A DNA stretch of 64,000 nt from Oscillospiraceae bacterium (GTDB lineage Bacteria > Bacillota > Clostridia > Oscillospirales > CAG-272): NCBI GenBank assembly GCA_015064355.1, contig SVSJ01000005.1:1-64000 (forward strand). The letters are read 5' to 3'. The notes under the pieces are model-generated. The model saw nothing but the letters and a program-made list of their open reading frames with translations. It had not been told where the DNA came from and ran no database searches. Made by a program: the position numbers and the translations under genes. Of this stretch, positions 1 through 19,021 are shown piece after piece (position 1 is the first letter of the stretch; every line of letters begins with the position of its first letter).

Positions 1-2274
1 CCCTCTGCTCACTTTTCAAGAACACTCAAACTTGTAAGACTTATCCGCACCATGTTTGACAAGGATGAGGATGAAGGTCCCGCAATCGGTCAGCTTGACG
101 ACGGTATCCTCAAGGTTTACGTTGCTGCCACCGGCAAATCCGGTGCCGACGGTACTGCAAAGAATCCTTTTGCAACAATCGAAGCGGCTCGTGACGCTAT
201 CCGCGACGTTAACAAGTCCGATTTTGACGGCATTGACGTTATTGTTAAAAAAGGTACTTACTCCATTAAAGAAGCTATCGTTCTTACCGAAGAAGACAGC
301 GGTACAAATGACTGCCCCATCCGTTACATCGGTGAAGACGGTGCGACCATTGTTGGCGGTGTTTCCTTTACTGCAAAAGATTTCGCTCCCGCAACAGGTA
401 AGGATGCAAAATACTTCCCTGAAGCTGACAAGGTAGTTCAGATCGATCTCGGTCAGTTCGGTTATACACCCGAAGATATTAAAGCTTACCTTTCCAATAG
501 AAGCTATCTCAGAGTTGTTCCCTTCCTTTCCGCTGATGCAAAGAGACAGACACTCTGCCGTTATCCCAACGACGAGTGGATCAACATTGACAGCGCTACT
601 ATGATCGACTACAACGGTAATGAAACTCACTATACCGACAACGACCCTGTTGACGTGCAGTATCAGCCTGACGTGGTTGTTATCGACTACGGTGACGAGC
701 ACATTGAAACCGTAAACGGCTGGACGAGCGAAGGACACAAGTACATCGCAGGTCATCTCCGTTATCTCTGGTGTCACGACCAGACAAACATTCTGGATAT
801 TGATAAGGAAAACGGACTTGTAACAGTCGACTATACCGGTTCTTATGATCCTGTTCCCGGTATGATCATTTACTTCTACAACATTCCCGAAGAGCTTGAT
901 GTTCCCGGTGAATACTATATCAGCGAAGATGCTATTCTCTACTATTACCCCGGCGAGAACTTTGAAACAGCAGTATTCTCTCTTCCTGTTGTTGAAAATA
1001 TTCTCTCTATAGAGGGTGCTGACTACATTACTCTCGAAAGACTCACATTTACATCATCCGAAAATAATGGTATCGTCTTTGAGGATGCAGACTATCTTAC
1101 AATTAAGGACTGTACTGTCTCCTCAATAAAGAAGCAGGCAATCCGCGGTGAAGGTCTTTATCTCACAATTGAAGGCAACCATATTTTCGATATAGGTGAC
1201 TCCGGTATCGTTATTGATAGTGGTGACCTCTACATACCTGAAGATTACAAGAACGTCACAAACGTTAACAACAACTACGTTCACGACTGGTCTATGACAG
1301 CAGTTATTAGCTATGCTATTGACGTATCCGGTATTGGAATCACAGTTGCCCACAACACTCTCTGCGATTCCGGCTCTAAAGCAATCAATACAAATCTGGC
1401 TGTAAACACACTCGTTGAGTATAACTTGGTATTCAACGTACTCCGTACCACAGAAGACTCCGGCGCTCTTGGCGGTGGCGGAGCTTGGAGCAGCGCTCAC
1501 ACAACATACAGATACAACTACATTTACAATTGCGGTCCTACAGAAATTCTTGATAGTATCAAGGCAAAGAACCCTGAATACGATGTAATTGGCGCTGCCG
1601 GATTCTATTTCGATGGTCACGGTTCATTTGTTGACACTTACGGTAACGTAATCGCAAATATCGACGGTAATGGTGTACTTATCAATGGCGGTCGTAACAA
1701 TAGTGTTACCGGAAACCTTATAGTAAACTGCACTCAGGACTATGTTTGGGGTTGTGAGCTTTCGTATGGCGACAAATTCGACGATGATGGCAAGTATATT
1801 CCCGACACTCTCTCAATTCCTGCTTATGTATATCTTGATGAGTTCAAGGCAGTTAACCCTGTGTCTGCAGAGTTTATTCTTGAACTTGATGAGAACACTG
1901 ATCCTTATGATCCTATGGTTAAGGAAGCTCCTGCTCTCAACGTTATCAAGAACAACTGGTGTCACTTCAATAAGGGTAACAGAAATAATCCGTCCCGCGG
2001 TACCGCTCTTTATCATATTGAAGAGTACTTCTGGCGTTACACAAATGAAGGTGATGTTGACGCAAAGCGCGGTGAGCTTTATAGCGATAACAAAAATCAC
2101 ACCGTTTATAACAGCAAGCGTGATGATGTTGATATTAAAAAGCTCATCACAGAGACCGCTGCAGGCGTTATCGAAATTGACTGGGAAACATTCGAAAAGA
2201 TCGGTATCGATCCTACACAGTGGAGTCTTGATGTTGAGCTTCCCGAAAAAACAATAGTTTTTCCTAAAGGATAA
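1..2274 (+). CDS. Secreted right-handed parallel beta-helix protein, copy 1 (5' truncated)
   Basis: Reading is open from base 1 (P-S-A-H-F-S...), matching residues just after the signal peptide of copy 3, so the start and signal peptide lie upstream and the ATG at 52 is internal. An N-terminal block has the signatures ADGTAKNPFATIEAARDAIR and TEEDSGT..CPIRYIGEDG, typical of beta-helix carbohydrate-active or adhesin-type proteins. Beyond about residue 300 there are repeated short N/G/I-rich PbH1-like turns (DYITLERLTFTSS, DYLTIKDCTVSS). The fold is clear; the activity is not. The layout resembles GH141/GH120-type beta-helix hydrolases, but I cannot place catalytic residues. No LPXTG, SLH or dockerin is visible, so it is probably released. 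A strong terminator follows. It is the first of three tandem paralogues, and the array may continue upstream. Confidence 0.85.
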   Translation, partial: PSAHFSRTLKLVRLIRTMFDKDEDEGPAIGQLDDGILKVYVAATGKSGADGTAKNPFATIEAARDAIRDVNKSDFDGIDVIVKKGTYSIKEAIVLTEEDSGTNDCPIRYIGEDGATIVGGVSFTAKDFAPATGKDAKYFPEADKVVQIDLGQFGYTPEDIKAYLSNRSYLRVVPFLSADAKRQTLCRYPNDEWINIDSATMIDYNGNETHYTDNDPVDVQYQPDVVVIDYGDEHIETVNGWTSEGHKYIAGHLRYLWCHDQTNILDIDKENGLVTVDYTGSYDPVPGMIIYFYNIPEELDVPGEYYISEDAILYYYPGENFETAVFSLPVVENILSIEGADYITLERLTFTSSENNGIVFEDADYLTIKDCTVSSIKKQAIRGEGLYLTIEGNHIFDIGDSGIVIDSGDLYIPEDYKNVTNVNNNYVHDWSMTAVISYAIDVSGIGITVAHNTLCDSGSKAINTNLAVNTLVEYNLVFNVLRTTEDSGALGGGGAWSSAHTTYRYNYIYNCGPTEILDSIKAKNPEYDVIGAAGFYFDGHGSFVDTYGNVIANIDGNGVLINGGRNNSVTGNLIVNCTQDYVWGCELSYGDKFDDDGKYIPDTLSIPAYVYLDEFKAVNPVSAEFILELDENTDPYDPMVKEAPALNVIKNNWCHFNKGNRNNPSRGTALYHIEEYFWRYTNEGDVDAKRGELYSDNKNHTVYNSKRDDVDIKKLITETAAGVIEIDWETFEKIGIDPTQWSLDVELPEKTIVFPKG

Positions 2275-2282
2275 TTGATATT

Positions 2283-2312
2283 AAAAAGAAGACCTACGGG
2301 TCTTCTTTTTTT
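2283..2312 (+). terminator. Rho-independent terminator after beta-helix copy 1
   Basis: A 12-bp stem AAAAAGAAGACC / GGTCTTCTTTTT closes on a TACG loop and runs into a T tract, 8 bases after the stop codon. Nearly the same hairpin follows copy 2. Confidence 0.9.
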
Positions 2313-2368
2313 ACATTGTGTATAGTTTTATGAGGTTTAATTTTTGCAAGTTGACTAATGCTTTTTCC

Positions 2369-2398
2369 TTGCTTTTCACGGGGTGAGTATGGTATAAT
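2369..2398 (+). promoter_or_regulatory. Promoter of beta-helix copy 2 (extended -10)
   Basis: TTGCTT, 18 bases, TATAAT, with TGG just before the -10 giving an extended -10. AAAGGAG and the ATG follow at 2422-2437. The surrounding block of about 120 bases recurs almost unchanged before copy 3. An inverted pair GCAAG/CTTGC (2346-2350 and 2368-2372) overlaps the -35 and could be an operator. Confidence 0.75.
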
Positions 2399-2434
2399 TA
2401 CATATGTAGATCATTTCTCAAAAGGAGAATTTTT

Positions 2435-4705
2435 ATGAAAAGAATCATCGCACTCGTTCTTGTTCTGTGCATGACGCTTGGAATGGTAGTTACCGTTTCT
2501 GCAGCTCCCGGTGCAGGTTTCTCAAGGACACTCAATCTTGTTCGTCTTATCAGAACAATGTTCGCAAAGGACGAAGAAGACGCCCCCGCAATCGGTCAGC
2601 TTGACAAAGGTATTCTCACAGTTTACGTTTCCGCAAACGGCAAATCCGGTGCTGACGGTACTGCCAAAAATCCCTTTGCAACGATCGAAGCGGCTCGTGA
2701 CGCGATTCGAGACGTAAACAAGTCCGGCCTCAAGGGTATCACTGTTCTCATAAAGAGCGGTGAATATCGCATCAATGACACCATCGTATTTACAGAAGAA
2801 GACAGCGGTACTGAAAAGTGCCCCATTACTTACCTCGGTGAAGACGGCACCATCCTCTGCGGCGGTGTTTCCTTCACAAGCACTGCTTTCAAGAAAGCCG
2901 ACGGTTCACTTGTAGAATACTTCCCGGCCGAAGCAAGAGACAAGATCGTTTCCATTGACCTTAAGGAATATGGTTTCACAGTTGATCAGATTGCAAAGCT
3001 TCTCGCAAAAACCGTAGGCAGCTACCAGGCTAACGCACCCGTTGTTGCTGTTAACGGCAAGAATATGACTCTCGCTCGTTTTCCCAACGATGAATGGATC
3101 GAAATGGAACACGGTCAGTTCTACGATGCAAACGGCAATCCCACACAGTATACAGATAATGACAGACATATTCCTAAGGATCAGCAGGCTCACACAACAC
3201 GCGTTGAATACGGTGATGATTACTTCGAAACTGTAACATCCTGGCACTCCTACGAGGACATTTTCGTTGAGGGACGTTTCACTCACCTTTGGGTACACGA
3301 CAACTCCGAGATCCAGAGTATCAACTACGAAACCGACGAAGTCACCGTTCCCTACTCCGGTGCTTATTTTCCTAATGACGGCGGTCTGCTCTACTTCTAC
3401 AACATTCCCGAAGAGCTTGACATGCCCGGCGAATATATCGTTGACAGAGACTGCATTCTCTACTACTATCCCGAAGAAAATTTTGAAACAGCAAGATTCA
3501 CAATGGCTGTGCTCGACAAGAATATGATCGAGCTCGACTCCGATTATATTACTTTCGACAATCTCACCCTCGAATCCGGCCGCAAGAACGGTATCAACGG
3601 ATCTGTAAACAACGCAACTATCCAGAACTGTATCGTTCGCGACTTTATGGTTACTGGTATTAACATTGTTGGTGGATACAACAACTACATCTACTCCAAT
3701 GAAGTTTACAGCATAGGCGGCACAGGTATCGACATCAACGAAGCAGGCGACAGAGAAACTCTCGCAAAATCCAACACTATCGTTTGTAACAACTACGTTC
3801 ACGATTACGGCTTCGGCGGTATCATTGAATATGCCATCCTTTATTCAGGTTGCGGTGTAACAGTTTGCCACAACGAATGCTGCGACTCCAACACTCTCGC
3901 AATGGACAACAGCGGTCCTTACCACCTCACAGAGTACAACTACATTCACGACATTGGTCAGTTCTTCTCGGACGGTGGTGCAATCGGTTCCGGCGGCAGC
4001 CACAACTACGGTTCCATCTTCAGATACAATTATCTTGAAAACATCGGCACTGCTGAATATCCCACAGTTACCCAGCTCGGAGTTCAGGCATTCACAGTTG
4101 ACTGCGACGCAAACGGTCTGACTATCTACTCCAACATCATTAATAAGATAACAGGTTCAGGCGTAGGTGTCTCCGGAGGACGTGACAACAATGTTCACAA
4201 TAATCTGTTCATCTCATGCGGATTCTACGCTTACTCCCTTGATGCTCGTGATTACAATGATTTCAAGAATGCTGGTGTCGCGGCCACTTGCGGCGTAACC
4301 GAATATCTGTTAAGCGACACTTGGCAGGCTGCCTTCTCCGAACTCAGAGGACTCCACGGTAACTATGATCCTGAAAATCCCCTTGACCCTATGTTCGAAG
4401 GTGCTCCAGGTGGTAACAGATTCGTTGATAACTACGGTTACTTCGACAAGGCTAACAGACTTACAAATTATATCGGTAACTACACCTTCCTCTACTATGA
4501 CGATGAGATCATCAATGCAACAAGTGAGATCTTCGCTATTTCTGCTGAAAACGGCAATATGAAGACTTACAATTCTCGCCGCAACGGTGACATCGTTATT
4601 GCTGACGCTCTTGCAGAAGCTGAGGCAGCAGGCTATCCCATTATGACTGTTGAACAATTTAATCAGATCGGCAGAATCGGTGTTGGCCCCAATGCAAGCA
4701 AATAA
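2435..4705 (+). CDS. Secreted right-handed parallel beta-helix protein, copy 2
   Basis: 756 residues. The start is fixed by AAAGGAG 8 bases upstream. Residues 1-24 form a Sec signal peptide (MKRIIALVLVLC..., cleavage after VSA); the residue before Cys12 is Leu, so this is not a lipobox. A conserved basic stretch FSRTLNLVRLIRTMF and an acidic linker precede the DGTAKNPFATIEAARDAIR block and the EEDSGT..CPITY motif. The C-terminal two thirds are irregular beta-helix turns such as NNATIQNCIVRDF and SNEVYSIGGTGIDI. The C-terminus differs from copies 1 and 3, which resemble each other more, so this copy is the divergent member. It is monocistronic, with its own promoter and terminator. The substrate is unknown; a plant or host polysaccharide, or a surface adhesin role, are possibilities only. 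Confidence 0.87.
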   Translation: MKRIIALVLVLCMTLGMVVTVSAAPGAGFSRTLNLVRLIRTMFAKDEEDAPAIGQLDKGILTVYVSANGKSGADGTAKNPFATIEAARDAIRDVNKSGLKGITVLIKSGEYRINDTIVFTEEDSGTEKCPITYLGEDGTILCGGVSFTSTAFKKADGSLVEYFPAEARDKIVSIDLKEYGFTVDQIAKLLAKTVGSYQANAPVVAVNGKNMTLARFPNDEWIEMEHGQFYDANGNPTQYTDNDRHIPKDQQAHTTRVEYGDDYFETVTSWHSYEDIFVEGRFTHLWVHDNSEIQSINYETDEVTVPYSGAYFPNDGGLLYFYNIPEELDMPGEYIVDRDCILYYYPEENFETARFTMAVLDKNMIELDSDYITFDNLTLESGRKNGINGSVNNATIQNCIVRDFMVTGINIVGGYNNYIYSNEVYSIGGTGIDINEAGDRETLAKSNTIVCNNYVHDYGFGGIIEYAILYSGCGVTVCHNECCDSNTLAMDNSGPYHLTEYNYIHDIGQFFSDGGAIGSGGSHNYGSIFRYNYLENIGTAEYPTVTQLGVQAFTVDCDANGLTIYSNIINKITGSGVGVSGGRDNNVHNNLFISCGFYAYSLDARDYNDFKNAGVAATCGVTEYLLSDTWQAAFSELRGLHGNYDPENPLDPMFEGAPGGNRFVDNYGYFDKANRLTNYIGNYTFLYYDDEIINATSEIFAISAENGNMKTYNSRRNGDIVIADALAEAEAAGYPIMTVEQFNQIGRIGVGPNASK

Positions 4706-4712
4706 TTGAATT

Positions 4713-4741
4713 AAAGAAGACCTACGGGTCTTCTTTTTTTG
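4713..4741 (+). terminator. Rho-independent terminator after beta-helix copy 2
   Basis: Stem AAAGAAGACC / GGTCTTCTTT with loop TACG and a T tract, essentially the same hairpin as after copy 1. Confidence 0.9.
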
Positions 4742-4796
4742 CATTGTGCATAGTTTTATGAGGTTTATTTTTTGCAAGTTGACTAATGCTTTTTCC

Positions 4797-4826
4797 TTGC
4801 TTTTTACGGGGTGAGTATGGTATAAT
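4797..4826 (+). promoter_or_regulatory. Promoter of beta-helix copy 3 (extended -10)
   Basis: TTGCTT, 18 bases, TATAAT with TGG ahead of the -10, followed by AGGAG at 4851. It sits in the same conserved block as the copy 2 promoter, with only a handful of base differences and the same GCAAG/CTTGC inverted pair (4774-4778, 4796-4800). Confidence 0.75.
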
Positions 4827-4862
4827 TACATATGTAAATCATTTCTCAAAAGGAGAATCATT

Positions 4863-7214
4863 ATGAAAAGAATTATTGCACTCGTTCTTGTTCTGTGCAT
4901 GGCGCTTGGAATGGTTGTTTCCGTTTCCGCTGCCCCCTCTGCTCACTTTTCAAGAACACTCAAACTTGTAAGACTTATCCGCACCATGTTTGACAAGGAT
5001 GAGGATGAAGGTCCCGCAATCGGTCAGCTTGACAACGGTATCCTTAAGGTTTACGTTGCTGCCACCGGCAAGAAAGACGCTGACGGTACTGCAAAGAATC
5101 CCTTTGATACCCTCACAGCAGCTCGCGATGCTATTCGTGATCTCGACAAGTCTGACTTTGACGGCATTGACGTTGTTGTCAAGAAAGGCACATATTCCAT
5201 CAATGAAGCTTTCGTTCTCACAGAAGAAGACAGCGGCACAAAGAACTGCCCTATCCGTTACATCGGTGAAGACGGTGTTACAATCGTTGGTGGTGTTTCC
5301 TTTACTGCGGCTGATTTCGCTCCCGCAACAGGTGACGACGTAAAGTACTTCCCCGAAGCTGATAAGATCGTTATGATCGACCTTAAGCAGTTCGGTTATA
5401 CCGCAGAAGATATGGCTAAATATCTCGCAGCTGCCGGATACTTCAAGGCTGTTCCCTTCCTTTCCGCTGACGCTGTAAGACAGACTCTCTGCCGTTACCC
5501 CAACTACGAGTGGATCAACATTGACGACGCTTGGCTCGTTGACTCTTTCGGCAATGAAACACCTTACACAGACAACGACAGCCACATCGCTAAGGAATAC
5601 CAGGCTCACACCATCGTTGTTGAATACGGTGACGATCATTTCGACAGAGTTATGTCCTGGAAGAGTGAAGGTCACAAGTATATCAGCGGACGTCTCCGTT
5701 ACCTCTGGTGCCATGACGATACAGAAATCATTAATATCGACACTGAAAAGGACCAGATCACCGTTAAGTATGTAGGCGCTTACGATCCCGTTCCCGGTAC
5801 AGTTATGTACTTCTACAACATTCCCGAAGAGCTTGACGTTCCCGGCGAATACTACATCAGCGAAGATGCAGTTCTCTACTACTACCCCGGTGAAAACTTT
5901 GAAACTGCGATCTTCTCCTTCCCCGTTGTTGACAACATCGTTAAGATTGAAGGCGCAGATTACATCACACTTGAAAATCTTGTTATGACATCCTCCGAAG
6001 GTGACGGTATCAATTTCCGTGACTCCGATTATCTCACTATTAAGGATTGCTCTGTTTCTTCCATTAAGAATGAAGGTATTGATGGCGAAGGTCTGTTCCT
6101 GACAATTACCGGTAACCACGTTTATGACACCGGTGACAATGGTATCAACATCAGCAGTGGTAACCTTAACAACCCTGAAGATTACAAGAACGAGACCGTT
6201 ATCAGAAACAACTACGTTCATGACTGGTCCGAAACAAGCGTTATCGCTTACTCTATCACAGTTGACGGTATTAACATCACCGTTTCCCACAACACAACCG
6301 GCAACTCCAACTCCAAGGCTATTCACGCCTCTACAGGTGCTAACATCACTATAGAATACAACTATGTATTCAACGTACTCCAGGCTGTTGAAGACTGCGG
6401 AGCCATCTCCGGTGACGGCGGAAAAGGCAACGGTAATATGGTATACAGATACAACTACGTTCACAACGTAGGTCCTACAGCAATTCTCGAAACAATCAGA
6501 GAAAAGAACCCCGACTTCTCTAACGTTGGTTCCGTTGGTTTCTACTATGACGGTGCTTCCTCTTACTTCAACACATACGGTAACGTAATTGCTAACATCG
6601 ACGGTCACGGTTGGCTTTCTAACGCAGGTCGCCACAACTACTTCACAGGTAACCTTATTATCAACTGCTCCAAAGACTACGCTTGGGCAAGTGAATACGG
6701 CTACGGTAACGACGAGTTCGACGATAATGGCAGATATATTCCCAGAAAGACAGGCATCGACTCTCACGTATTCCTTGACGAATTCAAGGCGATCAATCCT
6801 GAGCCCGCACAGCTCCTCCTTGAGGTTGACGAAAACACCGACCCTGAAGATAAGATGGTTAAGGAAACTCCCGCTTACATCGTTATCAAAAACAACTGGT
6901 GCCACTTCAACAAGGGTATCAGAGATAATCCGTCTCGCGGTGTGGCTCTCTACCACGTTGAAGAACAGGTTTGGAGATACTCCAACGCCAGCGATTTCGA
7001 CTGCAAGGTAGGACAGCTTTACAGCGACAACGCAAATGTTTCTCAGTACAACAGCAGACGTAATGACCTTGACGTAACAAAGCTGATCAAGGAAACAGCT
7101 GCCGGCGTTATCGAGATCACTTGGGAACAGTTCGAAAAGATCGGCGTTGATCCCGCACAGTGGAATCTTGACGTTGATCTTCCCGAAAAGACCACTTTCT
7201 TCCCCAAGGGCTAA
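4863..7214 (+). CDS. Secreted right-handed parallel beta-helix protein, copy 3
   Basis: 783 residues, the only complete long-type copy. Signal peptide MKRIIALVLVLCMALGMVVSVSA at 1-24, then the conserved basic segment FSRTLKLVRLIRTMF, an acidic linker, the DGTAKNPF.TLTAARDAIR block (about 70-95) and the EEDSGT..CPIRYIGEDG motif (about 120-140). PbH1-like turns follow from about residue 330 (DYITLENLVMTSS, DYLTIKDCSVSS, LTITGNHVYDTGDNGI). Copies 1 and 3 share long near-identical stretches, including the FNVL, NNWCHFNKG and TAAGVIEI blocks. The fold call is firm. A glycoside hydrolase or lyase activity (GH141/GH120 or polysaccharide lyase-like) is only a guess. Codon choice is strongly biased, which produces a long false ORF on the other strand. 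Confidence 0.88.
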   Translation: MKRIIALVLVLCMALGMVVSVSAAPSAHFSRTLKLVRLIRTMFDKDEDEGPAIGQLDNGILKVYVAATGKKDADGTAKNPFDTLTAARDAIRDLDKSDFDGIDVVVKKGTYSINEAFVLTEEDSGTKNCPIRYIGEDGVTIVGGVSFTAADFAPATGDDVKYFPEADKIVMIDLKQFGYTAEDMAKYLAAAGYFKAVPFLSADAVRQTLCRYPNYEWINIDDAWLVDSFGNETPYTDNDSHIAKEYQAHTIVVEYGDDHFDRVMSWKSEGHKYISGRLRYLWCHDDTEIINIDTEKDQITVKYVGAYDPVPGTVMYFYNIPEELDVPGEYYISEDAVLYYYPGENFETAIFSFPVVDNIVKIEGADYITLENLVMTSSEGDGINFRDSDYLTIKDCSVSSIKNEGIDGEGLFLTITGNHVYDTGDNGINISSGNLNNPEDYKNETVIRNNYVHDWSETSVIAYSITVDGINITVSHNTTGNSNSKAIHASTGANITIEYNYVFNVLQAVEDCGAISGDGGKGNGNMVYRYNYVHNVGPTAILETIREKNPDFSNVGSVGFYYDGASSYFNTYGNVIANIDGHGWLSNAGRHNYFTGNLIINCSKDYAWASEYGYGNDEFDDNGRYIPRKTGIDSHVFLDEFKAINPEPAQLLLEVDENTDPEDKMVKETPAYIVIKNNWCHFNKGIRDNPSRGVALYHVEEQVWRYSNASDFDCKVGQLYSDNANVSQYNSRRNDLDVTKLIKETAAGVIEITWEQFEKIGVDPAQWNLDVDLPEKTTFFPKG

Positions 7215-7227
7215 TAAATCAAAAATT

Positions 7228-7254
7228 AAAGGAGACTTTCGAGTCTCCTTTTTT
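7228..7254 (+). terminator. Rho-independent terminator after beta-helix copy 3
   Basis: Stem AAAGGAGACT / AGTCTCCTTT on a TTCG tetraloop followed by T residues. Its sequence is unlike the terminators of copies 1 and 2, which suggests the array ends here. Confidence 0.9.
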
Positions 7255-7305: not shown

Positions 7306-8448
7306 TTATCTGAGGGTATTGCTGTTATTAAGGATCAGTGTACTGTAAATGAAGAGTACGTCATCAGCGTTTCTGAAATCCACAAGGGGCGCGCCTGTTC
7401 TGTTGTCACGCATGGAACCGAGAAGTGCGCTCTGTACGTAACGAATGTCCACAACGGTGATCTTCTTATATCCCTCAACAAGAAGAGGAGTAAGGCTTGC
7501 GCCAAAGGAATCACGGAACACGACGAGCTCTTTATCGGTGGAAGCTGAAGGATTCTCGATGGTTACAACTGAAAGGTTACCGCCGAGATACATCTCGTAG
7601 GGGTCCTTGCCGAAAGCTCTTTCCATATCGTAGATTGAGATCTGACGCATATTCTGGTGATCGTATACAATGCAATTCTCAAGCATTGCGTTTGTCATAT
7701 AGTACATATCTTCTGCCGGGAGCGGAAGTGCGCTCTGGCCGTAGTAAACGCCATAGAAGGGATTATCAAGGAGTGTCTGGGTATACTTCTCAGAGAGAGG
7801 TGTGCCCATTTCAGCGCCAATTTTCTGTGCTACATCAAGGAGATTTTCCTGCTTCCAGTGAGTGTCTGTCTTGTAGTAATCAGACAACTCAAGCTCTCCT
7901 GTAATGTCTATATAATCCGCAAAGTCCATTTTTTCCTGCATAAGCGCGAACATTTCGCTGTAATCAAGAGCGAGATATCCGTTCTCTGCTGCGAGGAAAT
8001 ACCCCTTATCGGGAACGATGGAGAAGTACACGTTTGCCCCGTGCTGCTTGATGAACTTGTCGTAGATCGCGCCGAACTTGCCTGTAGCGAAGTCCAGGGA
8101 TTCCTCGTTAAGAGGATACTCAAGCTGCGCGGCATATCCGTCTTCCACGTAGATATTGTTGTTATCCATATGTCCGAAAACGTTGAATGCAACGTAGGAT
8201 TTCAGAGTACGGAACTTATCGCGGAGCGGGAACTGATCGAGGCTATAGGACTCAAACAGCTTCATAAATGTCTTATTGCTGTCTTTGTTGAACACGGTTT
8301 CCGCGTTGAATGCGGGGAACTTCGCAAGCTCACGGCGTTCACTGTCGGAGAAATCGTCTGTGGGCTTGAACCAAGCAAAGAGAGTAAGACCGAAAAGGAG
8401 AACTACCATTACGCAGGTAAGAACGATATTTTTTATTTTCTCTGTCAT
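7306..8448 (-). CDS. DHHW/AlgJ-like SGNH-type protein for surface polysaccharide O-acetylation
   Basis: 380 residues with one N-terminal membrane anchor (about 8-28) and an extracellular SGNH-like domain. The family signature appears as TDTHW (194-198), and the nucleophile motif as FRDSFG with Ser314, giving a plausible Ser-Asp-His set. The family signature is D-H-H-W; here the second position is Thr. Such proteins work with an MBOAT membrane acyltransferase: the MBOAT passes an acetyl group across the membrane and the SGNH partner places it on a surface or secreted polymer. The MBOAT gene lies 12 bases upstream, so the two are co-transcribed. The polymer is unknown. Confidence 0.82.
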   Translation of the reverse strand: MTEKIKNIVLTCVMVVLLFGLTLFAWFKPTDDFSDSERRELAKFPAFNAETVFNKDSNKTFMKLFESYSLDQFPLRDKFRTLKSYVAFNVFGHMDNNNIYVEDGYAAQLEYPLNEESLDFATGKFGAIYDKFIKQHGANVYFSIVPDKGYFLAAENGYLALDYSEMFALMQEKMDFADYIDITGELELSDYYKTDTHWKQENLLDVAQKIGAEMGTPLSEKYTQTLLDNPFYGVYYGQSALPLPAEDMYYMTNAMLENCIVYDHQNMRQISIYDMERAFGKDPYEMYLGGNLSVVTIENPSASTDKELVVFRDSFGASLTPLLVEGYKKITVVDIRYVQSALLGSMRDNRTGAPLVDFRNADDVLFIYSTLILNNSNTLR

Positions 8449-8460
8449 AATGCTACCTCC

Positions 8461-9861
8461 TTAGAATCTGAAGTAAAGGAACGGGCTGAAGGAACCGTCA
8501 ACCAGGTATGCTGTCATTACGAGAATCAGAGCAACGAGGGCGATGGGTTCAAGTACGTTCATGATCTTTGCGCCGGCTGCTTTTTCTTTGATCTTTGTAG
8601 CAACGGTCTTAACAAGAGGTGTTGCACCGATAATGGCAAGAACAAGTACAACAGCGTAACTGCGCAGGTAATATACTGTTTCTGCGTTGATGAAGGGGAT
8701 TCCGCCGGCACCAAAGAGACCGCCAACATTTGCACCCAACTGTGAAAGGTCAACAGATGCAAACAGCACGAAGCTGAACAGCACGAGGACAAGCACGTAA
8801 ATGTGGTTCAGCACCTTCATTTTTTTGAGATGCTTGAGGAGCCACATCTTTTCAATAAGAAGTGCGATTCCAAAGAACACACCCCAGAGGATGAAGTTCC
8901 AGGATGCGCCGTGCCAGAAGCCTGTAAGCATCCAAACAACGAAGATATTGAAGATGTTTCTGAGCTTTGAGCAGCGGTTACCGCCAAGAGGAATATATAC
9001 GTAGTCGCGGAACCATGTACCAAGGGACATATGCCATCTTCTCCAGAATTCTGTAATGCTTCCGGAAATGAAGGGATAGTTGAAGTTCTCAAGGAAATCA
9101 AATCCGAACATTTTACCAAGACCGATAGCCATATCGGAGTAGCCGGAGAAGTCGAAGTATATCTGAAGTGCGTATGAGATACTGTACAGCCAGAAAAATA
9201 CTACCGACTTATCAGCGGATTCGGCAAAGCTTGTACCGAGTCCCGCAAGAACGTCTGCGATAAGGATCTTCTTGCCAAGACCGATCACAAATCTTCTTAT
9301 ACCAACCGCAACTTTCTCAAAGCTGTGGGTTCTTGTTTCAAGCTGCAGGGCGATGTCGGAATATCTTACGATAGGACCTGCGATAAGCTGTGGGAACAAT
9401 GAAATATACGTTGCGAGGTTGATGATATTTTTCTGTGCAGCCACTCCTCCTCTGTATACGTCAACCGTATAGCTGAGGATCTGGAATGTGTAGAAGCTAA
9501 TACCAACGGGCAGAGCGATTCTCAGAAGAGGTACGCCAATGCCTGTTACTGCATTGAAGTTAGAAATAAAGAAATCGGCATATTTGAAGTATGCAAGGAA
9601 TCCAAGGTCTATCACCAATGAGAGGATCAAAAACAGCTTCGACAGCTTTTTGCCTTGGTATTTTTCAATAAGAAGTCCAAGAACGTATCCAAGGATGATC
9701 GTTACTGTCATCAGGACTACGTACTTGGGTTCACCCCACGCATAAAAAACAAGGCTTGCAAGAAGCAAGACCGAGTTTTTTATACATTTAGGTGCGATTA
9801 CATACAGTAATACAACTGCAGGTAAAAAATAATACAGAAACGGGATGCTTGAAAACAGCAT
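8461..9861 (-). CDS. MBOAT-family O-acyltransferase (AlgI/DltB-like)
   Basis: 466 residues with many hydrophobic segments, typical length for AlgI. Conserved blocks are FDFSGYSDMAIGLG (about 236-249), FWRRWHMSLGTWFRDYVYIPLGG (about 272-294) and FWHGASWNF, whose His317 is the usual catalytic histidine. It is an integral membrane enzyme expected to move acetyl groups from the cytoplasm to an extracellular acceptor protein. AGGTGA precedes the ATG. It forms a tight pair with the downstream DHHW protein. The neighbouring lipoprotein is 74 bases upstream and may share the transcript. Teichoic acid D-alanylation is less likely because dltA/C/D are absent and the partner is AlgJ-like. Confidence 0.9.
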   Translation of the reverse strand: MLFSSIPFLYYFLPAVVLLYVIAPKCIKNSVLLLASLVFYAWGEPKYVVLMTVTIILGYVLGLLIEKYQGKKLSKLFLILSLVIDLGFLAYFKYADFFISNFNAVTGIGVPLLRIALPVGISFYTFQILSYTVDVYRGGVAAQKNIINLATYISLFPQLIAGPIVRYSDIALQLETRTHSFEKVAVGIRRFVIGLGKKILIADVLAGLGTSFAESADKSVVFFWLYSISYALQIYFDFSGYSDMAIGLGKMFGFDFLENFNYPFISGSITEFWRRWHMSLGTWFRDYVYIPLGGNRCSKLRNIFNIFVVWMLTGFWHGASWNFILWGVFFGIALLIEKMWLLKHLKKMKVLNHIYVLVLVLFSFVLFASVDLSQLGANVGGLFGAGGIPFINAETVYYLRSYAVVLVLAIIGATPLVKTVATKIKEKAAGAKIMNVLEPIALVALILVMTAYLVDGSFSPFLYFRF

Positions 9862-18061: not shown

Positions 18062-18940
18062 ATGAGCTTGCAAAGCAGTACTCAAAAAGAAAAAAACGCC
18101 GTTTTGGGCGGTGTGTTATATCTTGTGGCTACTCCTATTGGGAATCTTTCCGATATATCGGAACGAGCTCTGAAGGTACTCAGCGAAGTTGATTTTGTTG
18201 CTGCTGAGGATACCCGCAACACAGGACTTATGCTCTCTCGCTTCGGAATATCAAAGCCAATGGTCAGTTATTTCGAACACAACAAGCGCGAGCGCGGGGG
18301 GCAGATTGCCGCTCGTCTTGAGAACGGTGAATCTTGCGCGCTGGTAACTGACGCCGGCACTCCTGCTATCAGTGATCCAGGTGAAGATATAGTCCGTCTT
18401 TGTGCGGAACGCGGTATCACCGTAACAAGTATACCCGGTTGCTGTGCGGCAATTACTGCCCTAACCCTTTCGGGAATTGATACCCGCCGATTCTGCTTTG
18501 AGGGATTTCTCTCGGCAAACAAGGGTGAGCGCCGCGATAGACTTTCCGAGCTTGAGGGCGAAAAACGGACTATGATCTTCTACGAAGCACCTCACAAGCT
18601 GAAGACCACTCTCTCTGACCTTATGAAGCATTTTGGTGAGGACAGGCAGATCGCCCTTTGCCGTGAACTAACAAAGTTGAATGAAGAGGTCTCACGAACT
18701 ACGATAGGCAGCGCTGTGAAGTTTTATGAGGAAAAAGATCCACGCGGTGAGTATGTTCTCATCGTCGCCGGAGCAAGTATCGCAGCGAAAGCCGATTACC
18801 CAGAGGACCCGGTTCTGCACGTTGAAATGCTTGTTGGATCCGGTATGAGCAAGAAAGACGCGATAAAGGCTGCGGCAAAGGCCCGCGGTGTTGCGAAGAA
18901 CGATATTTACTCTCTGGTTATGAAAAAAGATGAGGAATAG
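18062..18940 (+). CDS. rsmI: 16S rRNA (cytidine1402-2'-O)-methyltransferase
   Basis: 292 residues, family length. Tetrapyrrole-methylase fold with LYLVATPIGNLSDIS at the N-terminus, FVAAEDTRNTGLML, LVTDAGTPAISDPG, IPGCCAAITALTLSG, and FYEAPHKLKTTLSDL. It methylates the 2'-O of C1402 in the ribosomal P site using SAM. A short C-terminal helical domain (GMSKKDAIKAAAKARGVAKNDIY) is the usual family tail. GGAGG stands close to the ATG and the gene follows trmN6 by 16 bases, so they are one transcript. Confidence 0.96.
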   Translation: MSLQSSTQKEKNAVLGGVLYLVATPIGNLSDISERALKVLSEVDFVAAEDTRNTGLMLSRFGISKPMVSYFEHNKRERGGQIAARLENGESCALVTDAGTPAISDPGEDIVRLCAERGITVTSIPGCCAAITALTLSGIDTRRFCFEGFLSANKGERRDRLSELEGEKRTMIFYEAPHKLKTTLSDLMKHFGEDRQIALCRELTKLNEEVSRTTIGSAVKFYEEKDPRGEYVLIVAGASIAAKADYPEDPVLHVEMLVGSGMSKKDAIKAAAKARGVAKNDIYSLVMKKDEE

Positions 18941-18983
18941 GAATTTTATTGATTATATATAAATCAAACTTGATATTTTTAGC

Positions 18984-19012
18984 AAAAACGTCTTGTAAAC
19001 GAGGCGTTTTTC
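18984..19012 (+). terminator. Terminator of the trmN6-rsmI transcript
   Basis: Stem AAAAACGTCT / AGGCGTTTTT with loop TGTAAACG. The metG promoter -35 lies inside its loop. Confidence 0.75.
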
Positions 19013-19021
19013 TGTTATAAT
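18993..19021 (+). promoter_or_regulatory. Promoter of metG-tatD
   Basis: TTGTAA (18993-18998), 17 bases, TATAAT (19016-19021), 42 bases before the metG start. It overlaps the upstream terminator. The short leader leaves no room for a T-box. Confidence 0.8.

Follow-up and report, generated by a model that had tools for sequence, protein, structure and literature searches.

How three secreted beta-helix genes came to stand head to tail in a gut bacterium, two of them behind nearly the same promoter, bears on how families of glycan-active enzymes are built and expressed. The window, meaning the whole 64,000-nucleotide stretch analyzed here, opens contig C44 in the genome of an Oscillospiraceae bacterium (G000; 2.17 Mb, 57 contigs, approximately 80% complete). 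The closest named proteins come from Oscillospiraceae and "Ruminococcus" MAGs from the rumen or elsewhere in the gut (SIG667, RUG11111, RUG12901, and RGIG3705), and the host is a gut bacterium of ruminant type. As described in an initial annotation, ORF calls in the window place three secreted right-handed beta-helix proteins head to tail, all on the plus strand (1-2274, 2435-4705, and 4863-7214). On one side of the array lies a divergently oriented gene encoding a 641-residue protein, and on the other an acetyltransferase pair. The features of the locus are as follows.

C37 end, 18879-19020: start of copy 1 (first 24 codons and promoter), joined to C44 by a 70-bp exact overlap
1-2274, plus strand: copy 1 ORF, GH141-type beta-helix protein, truncated at its 5' end where the contig begins
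2271-2434, plus strand: terminator-promoter block 5' of copy 2, matching 4695-4935
2287-2312, plus strand: copy 1 terminator, intrinsic, made up of hairpin GAAGACCTACGGGTCTTC and a T run; by eye, the same hairpin as at 4713-4736
approximately 2391-2398, plus strand: extended -10 GGTATAAT in the copy 2 block, which also holds an AAAGGAG ribosome site
2435-4705, plus strand: copy 2 ORF, 756 aa, of another subfamily than copies 1 and 3
2435-2635, plus strand: copy 2 leader (signal peptide, cationic helix, acidic linker), from alignment and family-wide search
4706-4862, plus strand: promoter block 5' of copy 3, near-identical to the copy 2 block by sequence comparison
4713-4736, plus strand: intrinsic terminator of copy 2, from a terminator scan, AAAGAAGACCTACGGGTCTTCTTT and T run
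4863-7214, plus strand: copy 3 ORF, 783 aa, AlphaFold pLDDT 85.7, closest solved fold BT_1002 (GH141)
4863-5063, plus strand: copy 3 leader, identical to copy 1 at 35/36 fourfold sites
6393-6395, plus strand: codon of copy 3 D511, aligned to BT_1002 catalytic D523
6549-6551, plus strand: codon of copy 3 D563, aligned to BT_1002 catalytic D564
7228-7251, plus strand: copy 3 terminator, from the scan, with a sequence unlike the terminators of copies 1 and 2

The array has three members

The window begins inside copy 1, and the initial annotation had allowed for a longer array upstream. The last 70 bases of contig C37 are the first 70 of C44, and it is on C37 that copy 1 has its promoter, start codon, and signal peptide. 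In the leader search, C37:18879-19019 and C44:1-123 were the only cut copies of the genome, each completing the other. The gene for the 641-residue protein (C37:16793-18724) lies 5' of the copy 1 start. In the related species G005, the C37 genes up to this gene are followed by a single gene for a 350-residue membrane protein, acyltransferase-like by inspection, and then by genes for a DHHW protein and an MBOAT O-acyltransferase, the pair that lies at C44:7309-9861 in the window's genome; this order confirms the C37-C44 join, and G005 lacks the three-gene array at that site. Because the C37 end carries the copy 1 start with a different promoter, and the G005 order agrees, the array comprises exactly three members. 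A longer upstream array was rejected, since C37 ends in the copy 1 start behind the divergent gene, with no further copy. With no upstream copies and with unrelated promoters in relatives, the locus does not bear out the suggestion of an expanding array. The DHHW/MBOAT pair (window 7306-9861, minus strand) is kept in G005 beside the array-less site.

The encoded proteins are predicted GH141-type enzymes

Pfam recognized only a generic beta-helix in family members. Profile matches were found to 9rx2 (5e-81) and to 5mqp, the structure of BT_1002 (9e-34), and in a Foldseek search with the copy 3 model 5mqp was again top (E 6e-22, TM 0.68 to target), the next best family being 3vst (E 3e-9). BT_1002, an RG-II alpha-L-fucosidase of Bacteroides thetaiotaomicron (PDB 5mqp), is the founding member of GH141, a family with fucosidase, xylanase, and endo-fucanase activities. 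The window proteins share with it the right-handed beta-helix, an N-terminal YVSPxGxDxxxGT segment, and both catalytic aspartates; they differ in whole-length identity of only about 16%, a special leader, no clear match to the GH141 insertion domain, and 16 copies per genome. For that domain (PF21231), the lowest E value was 0.25, reached by 2 of 14 members, and the corresponding part of the model is occupied by other strands. The catalytic aspartates of BT_1002 are D523 and D564 (PMC10154630, PMC12786026). In the alignment to profile A3, D528 and D569 of the BT_1002 chain align with D511 and D563 of copy 3; because D528/D569 and D523/D564 are both 41 apart, the chain numbering is offset by 5.

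Equivalents of D511 and D563 are kept in 15 of the genome's 16 copies, and a set of 20 sequences drawn from several phyla shows no variation at the catalytic aspartates. Because these residues are conserved, enzymes are favored over binders, and the three proteins are probably GH141-type secreted glycosidases, as predicted from sequence and fold. This agrees with the glycan-enzyme possibility, GH141 included, raised in the initial annotation and lends nothing to its suggestion of tuneable binders. A reading of the family as noncatalytic proteins that bind glycans or mediate adhesion, diversified by recombination to serve as surface binders, could draw on the many members per genome, on the surface-type N termini of relatives, and on the enzyme role being a prediction from sequence and model; it is nevertheless quite unlikely given the invariance of both aspartates across phyla and nearly all own copies, the sole exception having also lost more than 200 residues. 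That exception (C11:28731-30299, L032) carries a lipoprotein signal and has Glu at both catalytic Asp positions, and it is probably an inactive, noncatalytic derivative. Asn occupies the first catalytic Asp position in an SLH-type homologue of RGIG3705 (L088:4362-7130).

Reported GH141 genes number at most two per genome (review PMC10154630). Characterized members include the Wenyingzhuangia endo-fucanases Wf141_1 to _4, several paralogues in one gene cluster (PMC12786026), and the Clostridium thermocellum xylanase Xyn141E (PMC5593877). These enzymes have the same family-level fold as the window proteins, and Wf141_1 to _4 are likewise clustered; their activities, however, are proven, whereas the window proteins are known from sequence and model. 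The available text of these reports mentions no shared leader or homogenized promoter.

The trio combines two old subfamilies

In a tree of 54 catalytic domains, with the N-terminal region removed, copies 1 and 3 group together with two genes on G005 contig C46, and copy 2 is the sister of a G005 gene on C65 in a separate subfamily (100/100). The branches uniting the copy 1/3 group and the copy 2 pair have 100% support. As the tree places them, copy 2 comes from a different old subfamily than its sisters 1 and 3, and the trio was put together from two old branches of the family, not by simple copying.

Positions 4695-4935 match 2271-2505 at 93% identity (E 6e-95), a match spanning the block and the signal peptide. 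Over the 150 bases upstream, copies 2 and 3 are 95% identical, compared with about 50% for copy 1 against either; the near-identity of the copy 2 and copy 3 blocks is far beyond chance. The repeated block holds the terminator hairpin, the extended -10 element GGTATAAT, and a ribosome site (AAAGGAG). Thus, the block of roughly 150 bases and the separate terminators and promoters before copies 2 and 3 were correctly noted at the outset, whereas the same cassette does not precede each copy: the copy 1 promoter, on C37, is unrelated. Upstream identity for other within-array pairs of the genome is 49 to 65%. A genome search did not find the block at full length before other family copies, and an upstream comparison of family copies found no other pair in the genome with such a common block. 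The independent expression proposed for the copies fits the separate promoters of copies 2 and 3. It is not a family rule, because two members at C37:549-5144 (L034) lie 22 bp apart without a terminator between them.

Gene 5' ends are homogenized within arrays

In within-array pairs, fourfold sites of leader codons 1-66 agree at 70% (367 compared) versus 49% in the bodies, whereas in same-species pairs outside arrays the values are 43% for leader and 41% for body. Copies 1 and 3 agree at 35/36 leader sites and at 112/202 body sites (Fisher P = 2e-7). A trio on C11 is mosaic, with copy 41210 like 36140 in the signal peptide and like 38658 in the helix. In G005, the within-array leader signal is weak and one pair runs the opposite way, so homogenization is not universal. 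Gene conversion or unequal recombination appears to be the simplest cause of the front-end identity, as judged mainly from one genome, and the copy 2/3 promoter block would be a further conversion tract. Family-wide silent-site conservation of the leader was rejected, as leaders outside arrays are as random as bodies. Nor does the genome's family resemble an antigenic-variation cassette, with one expression site and silent copies: no silent cassette was seen in it, every copy possesses a start codon, a ribosome site, and a leader, and most are served by a separate promoter or lie within an operon.

Three other origins of the locus can be weighed against this evidence. Plain tandem duplication, in which two rounds of copying of the terminator-promoter-gene unit were followed by divergence of the bodies under selection for new specificities, would account for the head-to-tail order, the sister relationship of copies 1 and 3, and the common promoter block. 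We consider it unlikely: copy 2 and its G005 relative fall in a well-supported subfamily whose split predates the species split, silent sites are near saturation between bodies but not between front ends, and copy 1 has a different promoter. The placement of copy 2 and the copy 1 promoter likewise contradict the initial proposal that the unit was duplicated whole. Selection on a DNA or RNA element (regulatory or at the translation start) could instead have kept the front ends identical without recombination, and the leader is indeed conserved in most members, with the promoter block directly upstream. This is very unlikely; conservation of the leader is confined to the protein level (fourfold agreement of 0.43 outside arrays versus 0.41 in bodies) and the upstream regions of other copies are unrelated. 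Selection on DNA was excluded as the cause because unlinked copies show no such silent-site conservation. Finally, the assembly is fragmented and C44 starts within a repeat, and near-identical blocks might have led the assembler to misplace copy 2. Such an artefact is highly improbable, given that the longest exact run common to both blocks is 36 bases, shorter than the 70-base contig overlap, and that the G005 gene order agrees with the C37-C44 join.

Family size and glycan context

The genome encodes 16 family members, on C11 (six), C24 (two), C27, C29, C37 (two), C44 (three), and C50. Among same-genus relatives, G005 has 18 matches, four genomes have 8 to 10, and the others have 0 to 4. With respect to copy number across relatives, then, the array is missing at the G005 site, but the family is strongly expanded (16 here; 0 to 18 in the genus). 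Copy numbers in other genera were obtained by a recount in eight genomes: with the broad GH141-type profile A3, each genome of genus g47 (G132, G253, G281, G301, and G317) gives 22 to 44 matches and that of genus g58 (G081) gives 21, many in frames of about 900 residues and several in tandem runs. These expansions exceed that of the window's genome, and with up to 44 matches in other genera of the taxonomic family, expansion itself is recurrent. The g47 and g58 families resemble the window's family in their A3 matches and tandem clusters; they differ in that no full-length leader was found in them, and the expansions are independent. A literature search found no report of this gut GH141-type expansion. 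The C11 cluster has a counterpart in G005 (C46:7960-28978, L139 and L140) with the same two lipoprotein genes, beside which two of three leader-type genes are different paralogues: the address is the same, and the occupants are exchanged.

On C24 (1166-6196, L149), a family member is followed after 40 bp, on one strand, by a GH151-type alpha-L-fucosidase gene, whose product is a full-length relative of GH151 6tvk (E 6e-246), and then by a D-lyxose isomerase gene; the three likely form an operon. The GH151 neighbor was not seen beside the G005 orthologue of the C24 member. On C11, a gene for a pectate-lyase-like beta-helix protein adjoins family members. This context favors complex plant glycans, possibly fucosylated. 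Across the genus, counts of GH29 alpha-L-fucosidases do not track GH141-type counts, and therefore no substrate can be read from them.

A lineage-specific leader stands where sister species have SLH domains

The leader comprises 67 residues: a signal peptide ending in SVSAAP, a cationic helix (FSRTLNLVRLIRTMF), and an acidic linker, the signal peptide being followed by FSRTLNLVRLIRTMFAKDEDEGPxIG. AlphaFold predicts the helix at 32-47, with low model confidence and apparently outside the folded domain; its charge is +3 to +4 and its amphipathicity only moderate, with the acidic stretch after it. The leader is present on 13 of the 16 members, and three C11 members carry lipoprotein-type signals (...IVAC, ...LTAC, and ...FASC). 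The full leader occurs on 13 genes in this genome and about as many in G005, only on the GH141-type family; among the best 15 candidates per genome in 395 genomes of the taxonomic family, it was found in full in no species but these two. That it is common to other secreted proteins of the genome was rejected, as other matches cover the signal peptide only.

SLH domains (PF00395) are absent from all 16 own copies and present in sister-species homologues. The SLH-anchored beta-helix proteins of RUG11111, RUG12901, and RGIG3705, which are same-genus gut MAGs, share catalytic subfamilies with the window family but bear N-terminal SLH domains where the latter has its short leader. Within the larger subfamilies, G000 and G005 members begin with the leader (or with a lipoprotein signal); most of those from the three MAGs have SLH domains. 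The 54-domain tree requires at least six switches between leader and SLH types. As one catalytic domain carries either type, the N-terminal module has been swapped repeatedly; by this comparison, that module follows species and the catalytic domain follows subfamily. A lost SLH system was rejected as an explanation for the leader, since G000 and G005 retain 26 and 23 SLH domain matches, respectively. The C termini (for example, ...TTFFPKG and ...GPNASK) show no LPXTG-type signal with hydrophobic tail; the genome has sortases.

From its position and conservation, the leader helix probably keeps the enzymes at the cell surface, which is the weakest step of our account; alternatively, it may aid folding or secretion. 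A more specific proposal, that the leader is a compact new surface-retention module, standing in for SLH domains throughout a GH141-type family of one lineage and spread among paralogues by front-end conversion, so that a species changes the anchor of all these enzymes in concert, is tentative and rather doubtful.

Implications

Taken as a whole, we regard as fairly likely the explanation that the locus is a mosaic GH141-type trio, shaped by front-end gene conversion, that encodes exported enzymes held at the surface. Homologous recombination would have gathered paralogues from elsewhere at this site, after which short 5'-end conversion tracts would have equipped different catalytic bodies with a working promoter and export leader, such that each enzyme would be transcribed from its own promoter. 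Once exported, the enzymes may cut different linkages of complex glycans, probably of the plant cell wall and perhaps fucose bearing, while the leader helix, in place of the SLH domains of sister species, probably holds them at the cell surface. What is new here is a family of GH141 type in which paralogues are clustered, apparent gene conversion is local to the 5' ends, and the export leader is specific to the lineage. GH141 has few characterized members with at least three activities, and the 16 to 18 diverged copies per genome form a natural panel for mapping specificity, which is enlarged by genera elsewhere in the taxonomic family whose genomes hold as many as 44. The exchange of N termini on old catalytic lineages, together with homogenization within clusters, makes the re-anchoring and re-promoting of a whole enzyme family testable.
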